Virus record (IMG/VR): IMGVR_UViG_3300019776_000691
Location: 1-43,654 of that record
Reading direction: 5' to 3' (one strand)
Source of the DNA: a virus
Length of the DNA stretch: 43,654 nucleotides
Shown here in pieces: positions 3,209 to 38,446 of the stretch. The number at the start of each line of letters is the position of its first letter. Within the stretch, counting starts at the first letter, position 1. The notes below the pieces were generated by a model. It was not told the DNA's origin. It saw nothing but the letters and a program-made list of their open reading frames with translations, and did no database searches. A program made the position numbers and the translations under genes.

Positions 3209-3786
3209 GCGCCAGCCCCTCCGGGGTAGCCGGGGCGACCCCAGTGCAAGCACAGCTCCTGCGTAGCCTCGCGCCGGTTCACTAGCCCCGGCAGGGCTAC
3301 CATTTGCCCATTGACCCGGCCATTGACCCAGCGCACCAGCTCACGGCACCCGCCATCGATGTCGCCAGAGCGGAACTTGCGCACCAGTGTCGATTTGACG
3401 ACCGCAGGGGTTTCGCCCGCGTTGTAGAAAAAATCAATCAGGCCACCCTGAATCCAAGGATTGAGCGTGCTGTAGCGGCTAATGTTGCGCTTGGCCGCAT
3501 CCTCCGCAATCAACTTCCGCTCATGCTCCATCGCGCTGCACTCGGCTTCGGTGTAGAGGCGGCCCTGTATGACGCCCTTCCCCGTCACACCCCGGCACAC
3601 CGTCAAAATGCCCACGGGGTCGATGTAGGGCCGGTAGTACAGCACGCCATTTTTTTTGATCGTGGGGCCAGTGCCCTCGAAATAATCACCCAACACGCCA
3701 GCGACGTTGAGCGCACTGACAGAGGTTCCCGCCAGCGCAGCAGTGGCGACAAGCGCCACCAAGCGATTACGCAATGCAGCATCCAT
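3205..3786 (-). CDS. Endolysin, lysozyme GH24 family, SAR-like N-terminus
   Basis: The 193-aa protein has an N-terminal hydrophobic segment (LVALVATAALAGTSVSALNVAG) consistent with a signal-arrest-release or signal sequence. The GH24 lysozyme domain follows: candidate catalytic Glu in DYFEGTGP, Asp in YIDPVGILT, and Thr/Cys in LTVCRGVTGKG. The block INPW...DFFYNAG...STLVRKFRSGDIDGGC appears here as LNPWIQGGLIDFFYNAG. The stretch between Glu and Asp is longer than in the phage P21 enzyme. The start shares one base with the holin-like stop (TGATG). It cleaves peptidoglycan glycan strands. Confidence 0.88.
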   Translation of the reverse strand: MDAALRNRLVALVATAALAGTSVSALNVAGVLGDYFEGTGPTIKKNGVLYYRPYIDPVGILTVCRGVTGKGVIQGRLYTEAECSAMEHERKLIAEDAAKRNISRYSTLNPWIQGGLIDFFYNAGETPAVVKSTLVRKFRSGDIDGGCRELVRWVNGRVNGQMVALPGLVNRREATQELCLHWGRPGYPGGAGA

Positions 3787-4091
3787 CACCCACCCCCCAG
3801 CAAGCCAACCCAACTGGCTATTTTTGCGCGCAAGAAGGACTCAATCCCGAAGCTAAAAATCGTGAACGCCAAAGCGACGGCCCCTACGATGATTCGTTTG
3901 GTGGCAGCCTGCTTGTAATCATCCATCGTCTTAGCTTGTTCCACGCGCACGCGGTGGTCGTTGCGGTGGCCATCGTAGTCCTCGGCATCCAGATCGTTGC
4001 GCAAAAAAGCTGTTTTGATGCGGTCAACATCCTGCTCTACACGCCCGACACGGGCCGCAAGATCACGCACATCGTTAGAGCAATCCGGCAT
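3786..4091 (-). CDS. Holin-like/hemolysin XhlA-type small protein
   Basis: The 101-aa protein has an N-terminal charged coiled-coil region (DVRDLAARVGRVEQDVDRIKTAF). One hydrophobic C-terminal segment follows (RIIVGAVALAFTIFSFGIESFL), then a Gly-rich tail. This layout resembles XhlA-type membrane-associated lysis proteins. The start at 4091 (MPDCSND) is chosen over an upstream ATG that lies inside the previous gene; even so the two genes overlap by 17 nt. Its position directly before the endolysin supports a holin or holin-accessory role, which is inferred. Confidence 0.6.
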   Translation of the reverse strand: MPDCSNDVRDLAARVGRVEQDVDRIKTAFLRNDLDAEDYDGHRNDHRVRVEQAKTMDDYKQAATKRIIVGAVALAFTIFSFGIESFLRAKIASWVGLLGGG

Positions 4092-4567: not shown

Positions 4568-5434
4568 TTAGCCCACGAGGATGTACGACACGTACAGAGC
4601 AGCGCCATTAGCACTCCAAGAAAAGCGCCGCAACCCATTAGCGGCAGCAACAAAATTACCAGTGGCATCATTGGACGTAGGTACAGCACCGTTGCTGGTA
4701 TATGTTCCAGGTACGCAGCCCAGTGCTTGTGCCCTGGTGTCCAAATTGCGCCCACCACCAGACGGGCCTTGCCCTGCTGCGTCAGAAGTGCTGCCGCGTT
4801 CCCAGTCGATCATGTCGTGCTCAGTGCCGCTGTAATAGCGGCGCAGCAAGATCACTTTGGTGCCGTTTGGTACAAAAACAAAGGTCGATGTGGTAGTGCT
4901 GGCGTTTATCGCCCCGTTGGCCACTTTCCGCTGTACTTGGGCCGGGGTGGCTTGTAATGCCGCCAAAGCAACATCGCTGTTGTAAACAGCGAGGCGCGCT
5001 GTAGCGCTGGCAAGAACGGCGTCCGCTGCCGTGTTAGACGCCCAGACCGTAGCCATAGCGTTTGAGTTTGCTGCCAACGTGTTCATGGCCGAAGCACTAG
5101 CAGCCACCGCATCCATAGCGTCGGCGTTGGTGACCAATGTGTTCATGGCCGCTGTATCGGCAATGATGGCACTGAAGGCTGCGGTGTTGTCCATCACCGC
5201 GCTCATGGCCGTAGCGCTCGCGGCCACTGCGTTCATGGCCCTAGCACTGGACATTACTGCACCCATAGCAGTGGCGCTGGCAGCCATGCGACGGGTTTGA
5301 CCGCGCATCCCAAGTAGCACATTTAGTTCGGCTAACCGGCCAGAATCTCCGGTCAATAGGGTTTCGAGCTGAGCGCCGGACAGCGCCCCAGCCTCTATGG
5401 CGTTGAGCATACGCATTGCGCGAACCATTGGCAT
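4568..5434 (-). CDS. Tail fibre protein with 10-residue repeats
   Basis: The start at 5434 has an AAAGGA site and gives a 288-aa product. After a short N-terminal region, residues 51-160 are eleven back-to-back 10-residue units of consensus xASATAMxAV. The C-terminal 120 residues contain a beta-rich domain with FVFVPNGTKVILLRRYYSGT and end in ALYVSYILVG. Alanine/serine/methionine decapeptide repeats of this sort are common in phage fibres and probably form a trimeric shaft with the C-terminal domain as tip. It is the last structural gene before lysis, the usual place for the distal fibre. Confidence 0.75.
   Translation of the reverse strand: MPMVRAMRMLNAIEAGALSGAQLETLLTGDSGRLAELNVLLGMRGQTRRMAASATAMGAVMSSARAMNAVAASATAMSAVMDNTAAFSAIIADTAAMNTLVTNADAMDAVAASASAMNTLAANSNAMATVWASNTAADAVLASATARLAVYNSDVALAALQATPAQVQRKVANGAINASTTTSTFVFVPNGTKVILLRRYYSGTEHDMIDWERGSTSDAAGQGPSGGGRNLDTRAQALGCVPGTYTSNGAVPTSNDATGNFVAAANGLRRFSWSANGAALYVSYILVG
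4955..5284 (-). repeat. Eleven 30-bp coding repeats (10-aa shaft units)
   Basis: Codons 51-160 of the fibre gene fall in an exact 10-residue register, with Met/Phe/Ala at unit position 7 and hydrophobic residues at 9-10. Units are degenerate rather than identical, so they are old duplications under selection. There is no frameshift in the array. Confidence 0.8.
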
Positions 5435-8535: not shown

Positions 8536-8851
8536 GGGTCACGTCCTTTTCGACATAGATCGGTGTGGTTGCAGAGCTGATCGTGTAGCCGTCAGGGCGG
8601 CGCAGTTGGATGTCAAACTGGGCTCGGCCCGGCTTCCAAGCGCTGGTGTCAAGGCACAGCAAGCGCAGCGCGCGCGTGGTAGCTTCGTCAATCCAATCGA
8701 CCTCTAAATCGGCAAACAGCTCATCTTTATCGCTGCGCACCTGCGCTGATACCGCCCATCCCGCAAAATGCCCATCGGCAAAATGGGAAGGGATGGTTGC
8801 CAAAAAATCCAGACTGTCGCCGCGTTTGATAGTGAGTGTTGGAGCGCTCAT
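8528..8851 (-). CDS. Baseplate-associated protein, BppU N-domain-like
   Basis: A 107-aa protein, MSAPTLTIKRGDSLDFLATIP..., with the layout of small beta-sandwich proteins that begin with a K-RGD-T/S pattern in the upper-baseplate/fibre-anchor family. The key block is WAVSAQVRSDKDELFADLEVDWID. It is preceded by a GGGGG site. Family assignment is by pattern only. Its place directly after the hub/spike genes supports a baseplate role. Confidence 0.55.
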   Translation of the reverse strand: MSAPTLTIKRGDSLDFLATIPSHFADGHFAGWAVSAQVRSDKDELFADLEVDWIDEATTRALRLLCLDTSAWKPGRAQFDIQLRRPDGYTISSATTPIYVEKDVTRG

Positions 8852-9081: not shown

Positions 9082-10970
9082 GGGTGCGTCTCCAGCGTGA
9101 TGGTTTGTCGCAATTTGGGGCTGGCCCAGTTGATAGATGTGGCGCGCACGATGCCCAGATAGTCCCGGTCGTGGCCCCGGTAGAGCACGGCTTTGCCGGG
9201 GGTAATCACGCCGGTTTCGGGCAGCACTTGCATCGTCAAAGTGACGTGCTCTTGGGTGCCGGTATCCGCCAGCTCCGCCATGCCGCGCTGGCTGTGTGCC
9301 GTGGCATCAGTAATCAAGGGGTGCAGCACTTGTGGGGCCAGCACATCGCCAGCGGTGCCTGCACGGGTAACAGGGCCAAACACGCCCATACCTTGCCCGC
9401 CCACAAAAACGCCGTTGTAGGCCGGTTTGTCGAGGTACTCGGTGCCCTCCACTTCGCCCACTTCTTTGGGCAAGTCAAAGTCTGGCATGAGTAGCGTGGG
9501 CCAGTTCCAAGGCGCGTGCGGGTACTTGGGCAAGATGCGCAACACGGCATCGGTGGCGTGCGGCTGCACATAGCCGCCCACTGCTCCAGCAATGTCCGTA
9601 ATTGCCTCGATGTAGCTGCCCTGCATCGCCCAAGCCCCGGCAGGCACCATCCAATCTTGTAGTTGCCAGTCAAGGCTCCAGCCCAAGGGCACGCCGTTGA
9701 CGGTCAGCACATCCTGCATAAGCTGATGTGCCGTGCGCTCCAAGGTGTTGCCAAAGCTGGTTTTGACGGCCCAAGGTGCAGCCAGCGTGGCAGCCAAGCC
9801 CCGGCCTGACACTGCCCAGCGCGTGGGGTTAAAGCGCCGGTCACGCGATAGTTTTTCGAGGCGCAGCCGGAAGGGCTGGCCGTTGATTTCTGCCACCAGC
9901 ACAGGCGGGTCGCCGTTGGCGTCGCGGCCAAGGTGATCGGCGGCGTTGTGGTGCAAGCTGGCTGACCATTGCCAAGTCCAAGATTGGTAATCCAGCGACA
10001 TAGAAAACCCATGCGCGTGCAGCGGCGCACCCGTATCGAGCCGGTGCAAGGTGATGTTATTGAGCACGATATAAGCCCTCCGTGGGGTAACAACAATCGC
10101 CTGTTTTGGCGGGGCAACGCGATAGCAGACAAACAGCAGCTTCCAGCCCGTTGGGGCCGGGGTGTCAACCACCAACAAGCCAAGGCGGGCCGGGTCGTAG
10201 CAAATGGGTTGAGGCGGCTTGGGAGGCTTGGTTGATGCAGGCGATACCCCTGCCAAGGGCCGCATGGCGTCTTGCCAGTGCGAGCGCAAATGCACTGCCA
10301 CCGGCACGCCGTGGCCCCATGCCGGGTGCGTGGATGCCCGCCTGCCGATACCCTCTTGCCAGCGCTGGTGTGTGCTGGCGCGAAGGCGCGTAGCCTCTTG
10401 GTAATGCAGGCGCACGGCATGGCGCAGTAACTCACCCTGCTGCCAAACGGTAGCCACAGCCGCACGCAGGCGGGTAGCTTCTTGCCAATGCTGGCGTGTG
10501 GCGTGGCGCAATTTTTGCCCGTCTTGCCAGTGCTGTTGCGTGGCATGGCGCAGGGGTTTAGCTTGCTGCCAAGGTGCCTGCACGGCGCTTGCACTGCGCT
10601 GGCCTGCCTGCCATTGCGTGGCTGTGGCTATGCGCAAGGCTTTAGCCTGCTGCCAAGGCGCTTGCACTGCTGCGCTGGCCGTGGGCCGGGCCTGCTGCCA
10701 GTGGCTAGATACCGCATGGCGAATGCCGCCGCGCTGCACATTCGCATCCCATGCCAACGCCACGGCGCAAGGCATATCGGCATCAAACACAGCATCGACA
10801 CGCAAACCCACGCCCACGGCCAGCACCACGCTGGCCGGTAAATCTTGCGCAAAATCGGCATCAATAGCGATATGGCTATCGGGCGTTGCAGCTGCTGCGT
10901 GCGCATCGCCCAATACCAGCTTGGCGCTGCCGCTGGCCGGGCGCAAAAATATCAGCTTGCCGGATGCCAT
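9078..10970 (-). CDS. Tail hub / baseplate protein with 14-aa W-repeats
   Basis: A 630-aa protein with three parts. Residues 1-80 form a beta-rich N-terminal domain. Residues 84-240 form eleven tandem 14-residue units, consensus LRhAtxxhWQxaxx, with Trp (once Tyr190) spaced exactly 14 apart after the first step. Residues 255-630 form a hub-like domain (LDYQSWTWQWSASL, PVLVAEINGQPFRLRLEKLSRDRRF, AEINDIAGAVGG-type helix, ending VLYRGHDRDYLGIVRATSINWASPKLRQTITLETHP). The C-terminal part resembles gp27/late-control-type hub proteins of Mu-like and B3-like tails. That identification is from memory of the families, not a search. The repeats probably form a helical or solenoid insertion. Confidence 0.7.
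   Translation of the reverse strand: MASGKLIFLRPASGSAKLVLGDAHAAAATPDSHIAIDADFAQDLPASVVLAVGVGLRVDAVFDADMPCAVALAWDANVQRGGIRHAVSSHWQQARPTASAAVQAPWQQAKALRIATATQWQAGQRSASAVQAPWQQAKPLRHATQQHWQDGQKLRHATRQHWQEATRLRAAVATVWQQGELLRHAVRLHYQEATRLRASTHQRWQEGIGRRASTHPAWGHGVPVAVHLRSHWQDAMRPLAGVSPASTKPPKPPQPICYDPARLGLLVVDTPAPTGWKLLFVCYRVAPPKQAIVVTPRRAYIVLNNITLHRLDTGAPLHAHGFSMSLDYQSWTWQWSASLHHNAADHLGRDANGDPPVLVAEINGQPFRLRLEKLSRDRRFNPTRWAVSGRGLAATLAAPWAVKTSFGNTLERTAHQLMQDVLTVNGVPLGWSLDWQLQDWMVPAGAWAMQGSYIEAITDIAGAVGGYVQPHATDAVLRILPKYPHAPWNWPTLLMPDFDLPKEVGEVEGTEYLDKPAYNGVFVGGQGMGVFGPVTRAGTAGDVLAPQVLHPLITDATAHSQRGMAELADTGTQEHVTLTMQVLPETGVITPGKAVLYRGHDRDYLGIVRATSINWASPKLRQTITLETHP
10251..10721 (-). repeat. Eleven tandem 42-bp coding repeats in the hub gene
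   Basis: Trp/Tyr residues fall at 91, 106, 120, 134, 148, 162, 176, 190, 204, 218 and 232 of the hub protein. The unit carries WQ, then an Ala/Gly pair, then an Arg or Leu-Arg step. At DNA level the units are diverged, but several share a TTGCCA-type core in plus orientation. Confidence 0.85.
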
Positions 10971-33378: not shown

Positions 33379-33552
33379 TCAAAGCCCCTCCTGCTCAATG
33401 AAGCGCACCGTCATCTTGGCCACAGCCAATTGTTCTGGGTTGATGCGCTGGCCACCCTTTGCGGATGCAACGATGCGATAAGCCCAGCCCTTGAGGTAGC
33501 GCGCCGACCCCTCAAATTCAGCCAGCAATAAGTCGTACTGTTGCCAAGTCAT
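33379..33552 (-). CDS. Small hypothetical protein coupled to replication gene
   Basis: The start MTWQQYDLLL at 33552 overlaps the stop of the preceding replication-type gene (ATGA), giving 57 aa. The protein is mixed charged, with helix-like EFEGSARYLKGWAYRIVASAKGGQRINPEQLAVAKMTVRFIEQ. It looks like small phage proteins that sit at the end of the replication operon. Function unknown; coupling makes translation likely. Confidence 0.6.
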   Translation of the reverse strand: MTWQQYDLLLAEFEGSARYLKGWAYRIVASAKGGQRINPEQLAVAKMTVRFIEQEGL

Positions 33553-34517
33553 GTTTGCCCCCATTCCACGAGCGTGCTGTGCTCTACAGAAAACACCTTG
33601 CCATCCCGGATGGCTTGGGCCACCCCACCCAACTCAGCCATGCGCAGCCACGGCACATTGCCACCGGCCAGCACGGCATCCATCTCTGCACGCTTGAGCC
33701 AGCCGTCGATCCAAGCCCATGCACAGGTGCGTTTGGCACTGGTCAACAACCCGGTTTTGCTGGCTTCTTGCTCGACTAGCTCCATGTCTGCCTGTCGCTG
33801 TTCAGCTTCAGCGTCTTCTTGTGCCCGTGCCATATCCTCTTTTTGCACCGCTTGGGCCTGTGCTTCCCAGTCCTTGCCAGACAGAATTAGCTTGCGTACA
33901 TAGCAAAACGGCTTTGTGGCGTTCAGGATGCGTTTTCCTGTCGCTTGCACGATGGTGCCCAGCAAGTGGCCTGCTTTGGTAGCCATGCCCATGAGTTTGC
34001 GGATAGCTGGTACGGTAAGGCCGCAGTCTTGTAGCAGGTGCAAATCCTCTGGCACGGACTGGCTGTTTGGCTGTTCTGGCTGTTTTTCTTGAAAAACCCC
34101 TTTGGGCTGTCTCTCTGAAAGAGATTGCGATAAACAGTAGGCGTGCGCCAAGTTGGCACGCGCTGTATCTTTAGGTGTCGATGTATCTAGGCCCAGTACG
34201 TTCTGCGCCATTTCAGTAAGCCAGATATCCGCCACTTGCATACCGTGGCGACGCGATTGCTCTTGGCTGCGCTTGATCCAGCCCCCATCTTCGAGTAGGC
34301 GCTTGACTCTGGCAACGGTGCGCTTACTTGCCCCGATGACGGTGGCCAATGTGCAATTGCTGATCCGCACCGAAGCGCGTGGATTGTCTTTAGGCAAACT
34401 ACGCACGATTTTTTGCAGCAGCACACGCGCCCGCACATCGAGGGCTTGGATATCCGGGATTCGGTCATCGGTGGCTCTATCAGCGGCCAGAGTGATGACT
34501 TGGGGATAGCGGTTCAT
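33549..34517 (-). CDS. HTH replication-type protein
   Basis: The start at 34517 (MNRYPQVITLAADRATDDRIPDIQALDVRARVLLQKIV) has an AGGGGGG site, giving 322 aa. The N-terminal half has a winged-helix motif (ASVRISNCTLATVIGASKRTVARVKRLLEDGGWIKRSQEQSRRHGMQ) of the kind found in phage replication or RepA-like proteins. The C-terminal half is an Ala/Glu/Gln helical region (EDMARAQEDAEAEQRQADMELVEQ) followed by GWLKRAEMDAVLAGG. It is the last early gene before the structural genes. Together with the O-like gene at 70-1017 it gives the element two replication-type HTH proteins. Confidence 0.65.
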   Translation of the reverse strand: MNRYPQVITLAADRATDDRIPDIQALDVRARVLLQKIVRSLPKDNPRASVRISNCTLATVIGASKRTVARVKRLLEDGGWIKRSQEQSRRHGMQVADIWLTEMAQNVLGLDTSTPKDTARANLAHAYCLSQSLSERQPKGVFQEKQPEQPNSQSVPEDLHLLQDCGLTVPAIRKLMGMATKAGHLLGTIVQATGKRILNATKPFCYVRKLILSGKDWEAQAQAVQKEDMARAQEDAEAEQRQADMELVEQEASKTGLLTSAKRTCAWAWIDGWLKRAEMDAVLAGGNVPWLRMAELGGVAQAIRDGKVFSVEHSTLVEWGQT

Positions 34518-34617
34518 TGCGCCCCCCCTGCCTGCAATCTGGATATCCGTAATGCTTTGCACTTGCATGTGTTTACCAACTGCTCCATAATTGACCCGTT
34601 ATGTGTTTTGCAATAAG

Positions 34618-34692: not shown

Positions 34693-35097
34693 TCATAGAA
34701 AGCTGGCCTGTTTTGCAGGCACATAGACCACGGTCTTGGTCTTGCCTGTTACGCGGCACTGGCGGGGCTGCTCGCGCTGGAGCAAGCGGCCAGCAGCTTT
34801 AAGGCCAGCCACCCGCGCACTCACGGTGCCCGACTCAATCACTTTGCCGTAAACGCGCTGGTACGACTCTTTGATCTCAGCGCGTGTCATGTCGTCAGCG
34901 CCATTGCGCATGGCACCTACCACCAGATCAAGAATTTCTTGCTGCTGACGGCCTAGGTTGCGCAGGCCCACGGCGGCTAGGCTGTCGCTGCTGATGTCCA
35001 TTGAGGTGATGACGGCGCTTTGATCGGCCACTGATACAGCCGCCCCGGCAGTGGGGATATCCGTGGTGGTAATCATTGGTGTGGCCTGATTTGTCAT
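34693..35097 (-). CDS. Winged-helix-like early protein with shared leader
   Basis: The start at 35097 (MTNQATPMITTTDIPTAG) has a GGGAG site, giving 134 aa. The centre (LRNLGRQQQEILDLVVGAMRNGADDMTRAEIKESYQRVYGKVIESGTVSARVAGLKAAGRLLQREQ) looks like a winged-helix DNA-binding domain. The N-terminal leader resembles those of two further minus-strand genes (35332-35844 and 35901-36395): [M][TPS]NQ.TP...T.DI. The three genes therefore share an origin or a common N-terminal signal. A transcription-regulator role is inferred. Confidence 0.6.
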   Translation of the reverse strand: MTNQATPMITTTDIPTAGAAVSVADQSAVITSMDISSDSLAAVGLRNLGRQQQEILDLVVGAMRNGADDMTRAEIKESYQRVYGKVIESGTVSARVAGLKAAGRLLQREQPRQCRVTGKTKTVVYVPAKQASFL

Positions 35098-35117: not shown

Positions 35118-35183
35118 GGGCTGCTCTAACCCCATAGAATGAAAGTCCCTCAACTTCATCCATGTTTTCGGAAAGAGCAACCC
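35118..35183 (+). promoter_or_regulatory. Inverted repeat spanning divergent leader A
   Basis: GGGCTGCTCT (35118-35127) can pair with AGAGCAACCC (35174-35183) with one mismatch. The second arm ends directly at the ATG of the plus-strand gene (35184). The architecture repeats in leaders B and C with different sequences: an arm touching the start codon and pairing about 50-60 nt upstream. Translation control by sequestering the start region, or a palindromic operator, are both possible. Confidence 0.5.
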
Positions 35184-35444
35184 ATGAAATCGAAAGAATA
35201 CGAACAAAAGTACAGAACACACCAAACGGCAAGCAACACCAACTACATATTGGATGTATTTGGCGACACCTTGGCTGCACAGCAGGGCTACACAAATATT
35301 GACGGCATAGATGCCATCCACCTTTACTTGATTAACAAGCATGGCTGGCTCCCGCGCGACGTTCGATCAATGACTTGTGATGATTTGCGGCTTGCTCTGC
35401 ACGTAGAGATGCAAGGGTATGTCGTGCCAAAAGAAGCTCAGTGA
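35184..35444 (+). CDS. Small unknown protein of divergent cassette A
   Basis: The 86-aa protein (MKSKEYEQKYRTHQTASNTNYILDVFGDTLAAQQG...YLINKHGWLPRDVRSMTCDDLRLALHVEMQG) is translated from 35184, directly after the repeat arm. It is divergent from the winged-helix-like gene. Its last 113 nt overlap the 3' end of the next minus gene in antisense. No family is recognised. The LPRDVRSMTCDDLRLAL helix pair appears foldable and codon use is normal, so it is likely real. Confidence 0.65.
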   Translation: MKSKEYEQKYRTHQTASNTNYILDVFGDTLAAQQGYTNIDGIDAIHLYLINKHGWLPRDVRSMTCDDLRLALHVEMQGYVVPKEAQ

Positions 35445-35844
35445 CCACTTGGCCGTTGGTTCTGGCTTGTTCAATCCACTTAAGTAGTTGTTTTGCTTCC
35501 ATAGCTAGTTGACCTGCTTTTGCATCAGCACGCTCAATTTGCATCAATAGCATCCAGTCTTCTTCTGGGGGAGTGGCCTGCACTGCCACAGAAAGGCCAT
35601 GCCACTCTGCCAGCAACTCGGCAGCCAGTTTTTGCACTTCGGCAGGCAGTTTTTCAGCGGTCATTGCACGGTACCGGATGCCCAAACGGGTATTGGCATG
35701 GGTGATGACAGAGCCATTGAGCAACCAACCAAAAGGGCTAGGCTCGACAGTAATGGAGATGCCCGGCTTAATGCTTGAGCCAGCAGCAACCCCGGCCTTG
35801 GGGATATCCGTGGCAGTGGCTATAGGAGTAGTTTGGTTTGGCAT
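35332..35844 (-). CDS. Unknown early protein of cassette B (minus arm)
   Basis: A 170-aa protein beginning MPNQTTPIATATDIPKAGVAAG, sharing the leader seen in its two siblings. A beta segment (ITVEPSPFGWLLNGSVITHANTRLGIRYRAM) and helices (AEVQKLAAELLAEWHGLSV..., MLLMQIERADAKAGQLAMEAKQLLKWIEQAR) follow. The last ~37 codons are antisense to the 3' end of the cassette A plus gene, so the true end could be shorter. No family is recognised. Confidence 0.6.
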   Translation of the reverse strand: MPNQTTPIATATDIPKAGVAAGSSIKPGISITVEPSPFGWLLNGSVITHANTRLGIRYRAMTAEKLPAEVQKLAAELLAEWHGLSVAVQATPPEEDWMLLMQIERADAKAGQLAMEAKQLLKWIEQARTNGQVVTELLLARHTLASLRAEQAANHHKSLIERRAGASHAC

Positions 35845-35927
35845 GGTTATTGGCTCAAAAGGGTGGGCATCCGCAGACGATGGACAATGTGCTTCTCACT
35901 TCAAACCACCCAACGAAAGGGATGCCC
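35802..35927. repeat. 126-bp divergent leader, copy B
   Basis: This copy runs from the GGATATCC motif inside the minus gene leader, through the minus start codon (35842-35844), to the plus start codon of cassette B. It matches 36353-36478 with only five differences. GGGTGG (35861-35866) pairs with CCACCC (35906-35911). GGGCATCC (35865-35872) pairs with GGATGCCC (35920-35927). Two of the five differences are the compensating T-A/C-G change in the first stem. Confidence 0.85.
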
Positions 35928-36395
35928 GTGAAAACAGCAGACGGAAAAACCATCCGCTTGGACATCAACGCCGACTACGACACAGTCGCTTTGGATGAAT
36001 TGATCCACCAGTTGGCCATGGCGCGTGCATCCATGACACCAGCAATCCCTCTCAGCAGAGGCCGCGCTATTGAGGACGGCAGTCTTGCTACCATCGAGGA
36101 TGGTGGCAGTGCCGTCATTGCCCGGCGGCAGAGCGGCGGCTTTAGACTCTGGCTCAGGCATAGCGGCCTTGGCTGGATGGCTTGGGAGATCGACAACCGA
36201 TTTGCTAGGGGCATGGCCGACTACATCGTCACCAATACAACCCCGATAGAAGGTGCCAACCTCGTCAGTGACAAGGACACGAACTGGCACTAAGCGCAAC
36301 GTGGCCATCAACTCTTGCCCACCAGCCTTTGGTGTTTCGTGGTCATCCGCTTGGATATCCGTGGCAGTGGTTGTAGGAGTAGTTTGGTTTGACAT
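35901..36395 (-). CDS. Unknown early protein of cassette C (minus arm), probably truncated
   Basis: The protein begins MSNQTTPTTTATDIQADD and has a plausible folded part RLVPVRVLVTDEVGTFYRGCIGDDVVGHAPSKSVVDLP (about residues 33-71). From about residue 113 (position ~36057) it reads the antisense of the cassette B plus gene and contains AGG-type and Cys/His-rich unlikely codons. I infer that the real gene ends or is truncated near 36057. The leader is shared with 35332-35844 and 34693-35097. Confidence 0.5.
   Translation of the reverse strand: MSNQTTPTTTATDIQADDHETPKAGGQELMATLRLVPVRVLVTDEVGTFYRGCIGDDVVGHAPSKSVVDLPSHPAKAAMPEPESKAAALPPGNDGTATILDGSKTAVLNSAASAERDCWCHGCTRHGQLVDQFIQSDCVVVGVDVQADGFSVCCFHGHPFRWVV
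35928..36293 (+). CDS. Unknown protein of cassette B (plus arm), possibly chimeric
   Basis: By alignment with the cassette C leader, the start is GTG 35928, spaced 7 nt from AAAGG; the earlier in-frame ATG 35922 is too close to that site. The first ~43 codons (MKTADGKTIRLDINADYDTVALDELIHQLAMARASM) look like a real alpha/beta protein. Beyond about 36057 the frame is antisense to the minus gene and rich in AGA/AGG/ATA codons, which suggests an out-of-frame shadow. A tail-to-tail deletion junction between two genes at this point is the simplest explanation. Confidence 0.5.
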   Translation: MKTADGKTIRLDINADYDTVALDELIHQLAMARASMTPAIPLSRGRAIEDGSLATIEDGGSAVIARRQSGGFRLWLRHSGLGWMAWEIDNRFARGMADYIVTNTTPIEGANLVSDKDTNWH

Positions 36396-36478
36396 GGTTA
36401 TTGGCTCAAAAGGGCGGGCATCCGCAGACGATGGACAATGTGCTTCTCACTTCAAACCGCCCAACGAAAGGGATGCCC
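36353..36478. repeat. 126-bp divergent leader, copy C
   Basis: A second copy of the divergent leader, with GGGCGG (36412-36417) pairing CCGCCC (36457-36462) and GGGCATCC (36416-36423) pairing GGATGCCC (36471-36478). The arm GGATGCCC directly precedes ATG 36479 and includes part of the AAAGG ribosome binding site. The two stems share bases 36416-36417 and so are mutually exclusive at the edge. Confidence 0.85.
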
Positions 36479-36787
36479 ATGCACGATCCAGAGAAGTTCC
36501 AGGCAGAAACGATCAAGGCCATCACTGATCTTCAAAACACGTTTTCGCAAACCCTGAGTCGCCAGTTGGCCTTGGGCGCGATGGTGAAAGCGATACTGGG
36601 TCGGGTTCCGCTGGAGGCTCTGCCCTCGGTGCTGGAGGAATACGAGGATGAGGTTGACCACCAAGTGGCACTGCTGCACCCAAAGTGGCAACAACCAAAG
36701 TTTTGGCAGGAGTGGACAGACGTGATAGAAGCGCGGCAAAAGCAGCTTGCGCAACTGTCTGATCCAAAAAAGCAGGATTCAGCCTGA
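36479..36787 (+). CDS. Unknown helical protein of cassette C (plus arm)
   Basis: The start is ATG 36479 (MHDPEKFQAETIKAITDLQNTF...), 7 nt after AAAGG, giving 102 aa. The protein is largely helical with W/Q/E-rich C-terminal WQQPKFWQEWTDVIEARQKQLAQLSDPKKQ, reminiscent of phasin-like or small structural helices. It does not resemble the plus-arm products of cassettes A and B. Convergent with the 71-aa minus gene, with an 18-nt gap. Confidence 0.7.
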   Translation: MHDPEKFQAETIKAITDLQNTFSQTLSRQLALGAMVKAILGRVPLEALPSVLEEYEDEVDHQVALLHPKWQQPKFWQEWTDVIEARQKQLAQLSDPKKQDSA

Positions 36788-36805: not shown

Positions 36806-37021
36806 TCATCGCAATTGACTTTCAGGGCTAAGTGCTGCCACCAGCATTGAGGCTATTTGTGGGGTAAGCGCACGGGTAAGGGCGCGGCGACCAGAAAAAA
36901 CGGTCAGGGCCTCTGGCTCACCGCTGGCGTTACGGGTGACAGCAAACGCCGTAAGGGACTGAAATTTGATTTTTCTACGGCGCTTGGACATGGCCTTGTC
37001 ATGCTTAGGTGGAATGGCCAT
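36806..37021 (-). CDS. Small basic protein after the CII-like gene
   Basis: A 71-aa protein (MAIPPKHDKAMSKRRRKIKFQSLTAFAVTRNASGEPEALTVFSGRRALTRALTPQIASMLVAAL). Its ATG shares a base with the stop of the CII-like gene (TGATG). The KRRRKIK basic run suggests nucleic-acid contact. Unknown family. Coupling to the upstream regulator makes it a likely early gene. Confidence 0.6.
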   Translation of the reverse strand: MAIPPKHDKAMSKRRRKIKFQSLTAFAVTRNASGEPEALTVFSGRRALTRALTPQIASMLVAALSPESQLR

Positions 37022-37587
37022 CAGCGCTTCCCCCCAGCCTTTGGTGTTTCGCGGCGCAGGGCACGAAACGCGGCTTGTGCATCGCCAGTGGCTTCGATCA
37101 GCCCGGCGGCCATGAAATTCACCCGGTTTTCTTCGCTGATGCTCACCGATTCCAATGGGCCAGCACCGTCAGCCGTAGCCCGGTGAATGGGGTCGGCCAG
37201 TGCCTTCATCACGTTGGCAAACTCAGCGGAAAGGTTGGTCAGGGCTTCGTAGGGCGTCAGCACATCCGGGCGGCGTGCGCATGGGATAGCGACATAGCCA
37301 AGTTCGGCGGCAATGGCTTGCAGCAAGGACACATCGCGGGTGATTTTTTGCAGCTTGATGCACTCCCACATCGTGAGGTGGTACTGGCTGTTGTTCGGGT
37401 TGACTTTGTGGGCCAGCACCCCTTTGGATATCCCCATTGCCTCAGCAATGGCATTTAGCCCGCCAGGGAACTCATGCACCATACGGTGTACTGTGGCATC
37501 TACGCTGGGCCAGCCGCCATCACCATCTGTTTGATCCACACCGGCTATATAGCTCTCAGGGGTGGTGATCGAGATACTTGGTCGCAT
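37021..37587 (-). CDS. CII-like phage regulatory protein
   Basis: The start at 37587 (MRPSISITTPESYIAGVDQTDGDGGWPSVDATVHRMVHEFPGG) has a GAGGTG site 6 nt upstream, giving 188 aa. The region LNAIAEAMGISKGVLAHKVNPNNSQYHLTMWECIKLQKITRDVSLLQAIAAELGYV is the HTH of the phage CII/CP76 regulatory family. The C-terminal half (LSAEFANVMKALADPIHRATADGAGPLESVSISEENRV) is typical too. It lies between the Cro-like gene and the early genes and probably steers the lytic-lysogenic choice. Confidence 0.8.
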   Translation of the reverse strand: MRPSISITTPESYIAGVDQTDGDGGWPSVDATVHRMVHEFPGGLNAIAEAMGISKGVLAHKVNPNNSQYHLTMWECIKLQKITRDVSLLQAIAAELGYVAIPCARRPDVLTPYEALTNLSAEFANVMKALADPIHRATADGAGPLESVSISEENRVNFMAAGLIEATGDAQAAFRALRRETPKAGGKR

Positions 37588-37612
37588 GAAAACACCTCGC
37601 ATTAATTCAAAT

Positions 37613-37981: not shown

Positions 37982-38446
37982 ATGGCCAAACCAATCAAAG
38001 AGAGAGATACACAGCACCCTTTTGGCCGCAAACTTAACGAGGTTATGCGTGAAAAGGGCATTGCTGGCGACTACAGTACGGCAGCTACTGTCTTCGGCGT
38101 CAAGACACCATCAGTCTATGACTGGGTAGATCACGGGCGCATTGCAAAACGACACTACAAAACCCTTGCCGAATGGTCAGGCCGCCCTCTGGAGTGGTGG
38201 TTTGAAGAGTTGAGGTCAGAGCAACAGGCAACAGAGGATTCTCCAGTGAAGCTTCATTCATCCGAAGAAGCGCCCGTCTGCCTGCGGGCCAAGCAGGAGG
38301 ATCGGTCGGATTCGCTGTGGCCATTTCGGCATCTACCAGTGACGGCGCTACGCGATCTAGATCCCGACGATCTAAGGCGAGTGGAGGACTTTGCTATGGC
38401 CTTGCTCGCCACAAAAAAAACCCCGAAAGTTCAAAACGGGTGGTGA
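37982..38446 (+). CDS. Short CI-like repressor (HTH, no S24 peptidase)
   Basis: The 154-aa protein begins MAKPIKERDTQHPFGRKLNEVMREKGIAGDYSTAATVFGVKTPSVYDWVDHGRIAKRHYKTLAEWSG, a helix-turn-helix of the type used by phage repressors (FGVKTPSVYDWVDHGRI). The remaining 80 residues lack a LexA/S24 self-cleavage domain. It ends in VTALRDLDPDDLRRVEDFAMALLATKK, a helix common in CI C-termini. The start is at or within a few bases of the predicted transcription start, so the mRNA may be leaderless. Induction by RecA-mediated cleavage is not expected. Confidence 0.75.
   Translation: MAKPIKERDTQHPFGRKLNEVMREKGIAGDYSTAATVFGVKTPSVYDWVDHGRIAKRHYKTLAEWSGRPLEWWFEELRSEQQATEDSPVKLHSSEEAPVCLRAKQEDRSDSLWPFRHLPVTALRDLDPDDLRRVEDFAMALLATKKTPKVQNGW

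Follow-up and report, generated by a model that had tools for sequence, protein, structure and literature searches.

Genomic context of the duplicated leader

The window analyzed here is the whole of a 43,654-bp virus record, with its phage genes on the minus strand. Near the leaders described below, minus-strand genes comprise a YdaS/Cro-like gene, a CII-like activator gene (Phage_CP76; positions 37021 to 37593), small genes, and an O-like replication-initiation gene (33549 to 34568); the activator lies upstream and the replication gene downstream in the same minus-strand operon as the genes that diverge from the leaders. The plus strand carries a repressor-like gene (phrog_2328; 37982 to 38446) and, sharing its strand, the small antisense genes E (35184 to 35444; 86 aa), B (35928 to 36293; 121 aa, GTG start), and D (36479 to 36787; 102 aa).

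An earlier note on this sequence had described two 126-bp copies of a leader (35802 to 35927 and 36353 to 36478) that differ at only five positions. Direct comparison gave exactly five mismatches (35820/36371, 35822/36373, 35841/36392, 35864/36415, and 35908/36459), with the identity ending at 35802 on one side and running into the start codon (GTG versus ATG) on the other. The compensatory change highlighted in that note is also real: T/C at 35864/36415 and A/G at 35908/36459 yield GGGTGG/CCACCC in copy 1 and GGGCGG/CCGCCC in copy 2 (stem 1). A second stem, GGGCATCC/GGATGCCC (stem 2), reaches the base before the plus start codon in both copies, pairing 35865 to 35872 with 35920 to 35927 in copy 1 and 36416 to 36423 with 36471 to 36478 in copy 2, and has two bases in common with stem 1, as had been claimed. 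Stem 2 exceeds chance: only 0.1% of dinucleotide shuffles produce a −1-anchored stem of its quality. We further detected a third, diverged copy, missed earlier, at 35118 to 35183 before gene E (stem GGGCTGCTCT/AGAGCAACCC; P = 0.0017).

The proposed association of the element with divergent minus and plus genes is supported. The early-operon gene divergent from copy 1 spans 35332 to 35844 on the minus strand, and that beside copy 3 (34693 to 35097, minus; homologs in the related loci L005 and L006) begins similarly to the duplicated one (62-bp match, 73%). The N-terminal motif M(P/S/T)NQT.P..TATDI is common to otherwise different minus-strand proteins starting at 35097, 35844, and 36395 of the window, at 8727 and 9410 of L023, and at 4917 and 5591 of L005; as it sits inside the duplicated module, the module also brings a piece of the minus gene. 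Separately, a 25-bp repeat (36318 to 36342 and 37030 to 37054) that codes for the ETPKAGG end of the CII-like protein reappears where the minus frame at 36395 begins, which suggests a recombination scar.

Related leaders in other loci

A search with gene D recovered a viral locus (L004), a Burkholderiaceae locus (L005), and a locus from Giesbergeria sp. (L006), in the last of which the leader stands before three different plus genes. A sequence-only model built from five leaders (R1) had matches in 5 of 27 genomes of the genus of G001 and added the loci L023, L024, and L025, the last two of which also encode gene D homologs, as do L004, L005, and L006. The genes behind the leader are unrelated, including the D family, a cysteine-rich zinc-ribbon-like protein (L023), and others. 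BLAST searches of phage and plasmid collections with the region, the leader, and the genes returned nothing except distant phrog_1244 matches, no relatives came up when viral contigs were scanned at the protein level with gene B, gene E, and the minus gene, and pattern searches in viral contigs gave chance matches only.

A conserved hairpin ending at the start codon

The conserved structure in these leaders consists of stem 2 and an inner helix, which together form one nested, imperfect hairpin of roughly 63 nt ending at −1. In all 13 leaders, 2 of which (L024 and L025) themselves came from a hairpin scan, pairing joins the bases that adjoin the start codon to a stretch that begins 62 to 66 bases upstream; for three leaders that synteny or protein homology, and not the hairpin, had brought up, the stem at −1 has P values of 0.0017, 0.003, and 0.003. 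Scored on the minus strand with a covariance model of that strand built from 13 copies (R2), the window hairpins lie at 35865 to 35927 (copy 1; arms 35865 to 35872 and 35920 to 35927, inner helix at about 35878 to 35887 with 35902 to 35915; 84.9 bits), 36416 to 36478 (copy 2; arms 36416 to 36423 and 36471 to 36478; 90.2 bits), and 35118 to 35183 (copy 3, which also has inner pairs and reaches −1 relative to its ATG, at 35184; 47.9 bits, minus-strand z score of −4.8).

RNAalifold returned −21.8 for the minus strand of 13 leaders, with 19 pairs, 12 of them compensated, versus −13.9 for the plus strand of 12 leaders, with 8 pairs, 2 of them compensated. With the structure fixed, 90.5% of the cells are paired on the minus strand, and the covariation is 0.452 versus 0.192 ± 0.026 in column shuffles, which ignore relatedness; it is also far above slid controls, over which the structure, being taken from the same alignment, has an advantage. 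On the plus strand, 72.8% of the cells are paired and the covariation (0.210 versus 0.120 shuffled) is weaker, chiefly because the inner helix, 84.2% paired on the minus strand, is about half unpaired there (52.8%).

The selection for base pairing that the earlier note had read from the GGGYGG/CCRCCC change thus holds for stem 2 and the inner helix and not for stem 1 itself. In 12 homologous leaders, stem 1 shows no excess of covariation on the plus strand (0.184 versus 0.188 shuffled) and a weak signal on the minus strand (18 of 500 shuffles); it is broken by C·A on the plus strand at the compensating pair in L006, L024, and L025 and is missing from several diverged leaders. The duplicated feature is real and under selection for pairing, with the highlighted compensating pair lying outside its conserved part. 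Since stem 1 is without plus-strand covariation and is broken or absent in leaders, the suggestion that the two stems alternate as a plus-strand switch for both genes, which had drawn on the T·A-to-C·G change between the window copies, is unsupported, and we regard it as very improbable.

Some further structures and readings came up in these comparisons. Raw hairpin energy scans are uninformative in GC-rich DNA, although one revealed an extra L023 leader with a start codon at 9718; just before that codon ends a longer (84-nt) hairpin of other sequence (9634 to 9717), scored weakly by R2 (12.9 bits). A palindromic repeat around GATAGCTNNNNGCGCTTGATTGGCGGGCGCT adjoins plus genes in L006 (5370 to 6880), L024 (near 7920 and 8350), and L025 (near 7600). 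The leader as coding sequence was rejected: although leaders of the main class have an open in-frame peptide, the variable columns are spread 10/11/11 over the codon positions. Integron attC-like folded DNA was likewise discarded, as the GTT/AAC boxes are not in the required order.

Strand preference of the fold

As the A/C-rich plus-strand 5′ untranslated region (UTR) by itself raises G·U pairing on the minus strand, we replaced plain dinucleotide z scores with shuffles that preserve each half, and we set aside as proof of strand the plus-strand count of 57 A·C to 2 G·U, its 3′ half being A/C rich; the following controls lessen this bias and do not abolish it. With the outer nine pairs removed, half-preserving shuffles gave a mean z score of −1.93 for the minus strand versus −0.60 for the plus strand. 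In the inner helix, minus-strand G·U makes up 0.67 of the non-Watson-Crick cells versus 0.49 ± 0.03 when partners are permuted within columns. By itself, the outer helix does not tell the strands apart (4 G·U versus 3 A·C, read on the minus strand), and the unmodeled apical region favors the minus strand only weakly (z scores of −0.61 versus −0.23). Covariation, G·U usage, and folding energy favor the minus strand, the direction of the early operon, short of proof, which makes a plus-strand switch unlikely.

Folding and covariation on the minus strand could also mean that the hairpin acts on the early mRNA itself, as a signal for processing (by RNase III, for example) or stability, or as a shield that protects the antisense gene from silencing by the early RNA. 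The hairpin indeed lies about 20 to 26 nt ahead of a minus gene in the window copies, L005, L023, L024, and L025. However, its spacing to the next minus gene varies, with none close in L006b, whereas its spacing to the plus start codon is constant, which ties the element to the plus gene; we consider a role confined to the early mRNA unlikely.

Occurrence in Burkholderiaceae genomes

On the window, R2 confidently recovered the three known copies only. Among Burkholderiaceae genomes, it matched 43 of 401 at an E value of ≤0.05 and 31 of 401 (about 1 in 13) at ≤0.001, the latter count being made from the match table and the E values being rough and the filters strict. Each of the best 20 new matches ends on an ATG that opens a small gene, in most cases an unrelated one; as R2 includes the three ATG positions, this is partly expected, and the informative part is that 19 of the 20 frames have at least 55 codons. 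Further leaders stand in tandem in L050, L051, and L052, and gene B resembles, by eye, the element-led gene of L056. A joint alignment of 36 elements has a covariation of 0.569 versus 0.187 shuffled, in a set selected by and fitted to R2, the 23 later elements all having been found with this minus-strand model. The element is thus more general than the two window copies suggest. Rfam returned no match at an E value of ≤5 for part of the window or ≤1 for 19 loci, and the element is undescribed in Rfam and the literature searched, a comparison that leaves out Burkholderiales-1, a candidate motif with no Rfam number (PMC2864571).

Five element-led genes belong to one family, phrog_1244. An unbiased search for phrog_1244 genes found the element at 5 of the 15 strong ones, of which 4 were already known, so the element is not tied to this family; one more gene, in L085, has an element that was scored on its locus. 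Upstream of another phrog_1244 gene (L090) stands a possible variant hairpin that stops about seven bases short of the start codon and has a TACGAT hexamer. The named element-led genes include no transposase. In the surroundings of 18 elements, viewed over 16 kb, a phage repressor shares its strand with the element-led gene in all 7 cases tested, and a replication-type gene is opposite to that gene in all 6. Judged by this gene order, the element-led gene is antisense to the early operon, as in the window.

A putative start module of the antisense genes

The imperfect inverted repeat contains a conserved −10-like hexamer on the plus strand, GACAAT in copy 1 (35883 to 35888) and copy 2 (36434 to 36439) and TAGAAT in copy 3 (35135 to 35140). 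Across the 36 elements, this hexamer has A at the second position in 36 and T at the sixth in 34 and lies 35 to 43 bases from the start codon; about 17 bases upstream of it is a poorly conserved −35-like GGYG. The poor −35, with a CII gene present in the operon, invites comparison with lambdoid CII-activated antisense promoters (pRE type), which have CII-binding repeats at −35. Inspection by eye revealed no conserved minus-strand promoter at the element. A promoter-like hexamer flanked by two arms, with GGGCGCCC palindromic in several copies, would also be expected of a DNA operator pair at which a regulator bound to both arms loops or blocks the promoter. Against this, a single genome can hold different arms (35118 versus 35865 in the window; L006D versus L006a/b), which nonetheless change together, several pairs occur as three pair types, and the inner helix covaries too, leaving the operator quite improbable.

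The arrangement also resembles protection against read-through on the plus strand, in which the repeat would fold in RNA arriving from upstream and mask the Shine-Dalgarno site; a transcript of the gene itself, which starts within the repeat, would escape. The hairpins of phage T4 gene e and IS10 fold-back inhibition follow this logic, and there too an inverted repeat spans the promoter and ribosome-binding site so that the gene's own transcript alone stays unfolded. The stem adjoins the start codon and takes in part of the Shine-Dalgarno site, for most leaders, including the 5′ arm lowers the predicted openness of the site, and the genes are often in tandem (the window, L006, and L050 to L052). 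In contrast to T4 gene e and IS10, which fold on the coding strand, the element pairs better on the opposite strand, its inner helix being 52.8% paired on the plus strand versus 84.2% on the minus strand, and the main class keeps most of the site unpaired in the fold (copy 2, 0.47 versus 0.62 open). Protection against read-through is a doubtful explanation.

A proposed antisense mechanism

The reading that we prefer, at slightly less than even odds (a probability of about 0.48), is that the start region of an antisense accessory gene is covered by a hairpin in the early-operon RNA and that this hairpin serves as a pairing domain for silencing, in the manner of sas/sieB and of IS10 RNA-OUT/RNA-IN. 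Each copy would then be the start module of an accessory gene running antisense to the early operon, comprising, in plus-strand order, the −35-like GGYG, the −10-like hexamer, an A/C-rich 5′ UTR, and a Shine-Dalgarno site, with the inverted repeat spanning from the promoter spacer to −1 of the start codon. The module's own transcripts would start near the repeat center, without the 5′ arm, and would be accessible for translation. The early-operon transcript, from the other strand, would fold the same stretch into the long hairpin, whose 5′ side and loop would be complementary to the whole 5′ UTR of the antisense gene; once the early operon is on, the hairpin would let the early RNA silence that gene. 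Support for the structure and the architecture is good; the regulatory effect, with promoter use, transcript start, RNA pairing, and silencing as its components, is what we infer from them.

Comparison with known antisense systems

The sas RNA comes from the PL transcript. This antisense RNA switches sieB translation (PMC7067206, PMC12197685), and the present element resembles it in that an accessory gene lies antisense inside an early operon and, as predicted here from sequence, an RNA is antisense to its translation start region. The hairpins of sas carry a UGUAGG loop motif, which is present in 7 of the 36 elements (mean of 0.66 in shuffles). Leaders of the sas type likewise precede different genes, namely, sieB and a phrog_1244-like gene of the lambdoid phage HK446, which is placed antisense in the left early operon, with N on one side and the genes of the cIII side on the other. 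The HK446 leader is homologous over about 90 bases to the P22 sas RNA as printed in PMC13397905, and sas-related leaders are also found in lambda and P22, with different genes behind them in other lambdoid phages. In L110 (HK446; 3740 to 3884), the sas-homologous leader stands before the antisense phrog_1244-like gene at the place where P22 has sieB. However, sas comprises two hairpins, whereas the element is a single hairpin of about 63 nt that ends exactly at the start codon, lies mostly in the right operon, and is often in tandem. R2 found no match in the HK446 sas region, and with both sequence and fold differing, the element is outside the sas family.

In IS10, the first 35 nt of RNA-OUT are complementary to the transposase start region (PMC5006887), so that in both systems the 5′ part of a hairpin is complementary to the translation start region of the target. 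RNA-OUT is transcribed from a promoter of its own as a distinct 69-nt RNA, whereas the hairpin of the element would sit in a long operon transcript. On this evidence, the element would work like the sas/sieB and IS10 systems. The lambdoid morons and boundary sequences offer another likeness, being small accessory genes with their own start signals that are interchangeable behind a common leader; conserved antisense hairpins are not a generally reported feature of moron leaders.

Implications for prophage accessory genes

We tentatively propose, as a possibility somewhat short of an even chance, that the early operon of Burkholderiaceae prophages has a cargo slot, marked by this undescribed antisense-hairpin family, where newly arrived, unrelated genes take on the leader and the hairpin turns the cargo off at induction. 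If this is true, a structure search alone would list uncharacterized prophage accessory genes. Such genes often affect superinfection or the host, and the element would be a handle by which to find them. Antisense control of phage accessory genes has so far been represented by few cases, such as P22 sas/sieB; an element present in 31 of 401 genomes, at the starts of many unrelated small genes, would make it a general design.
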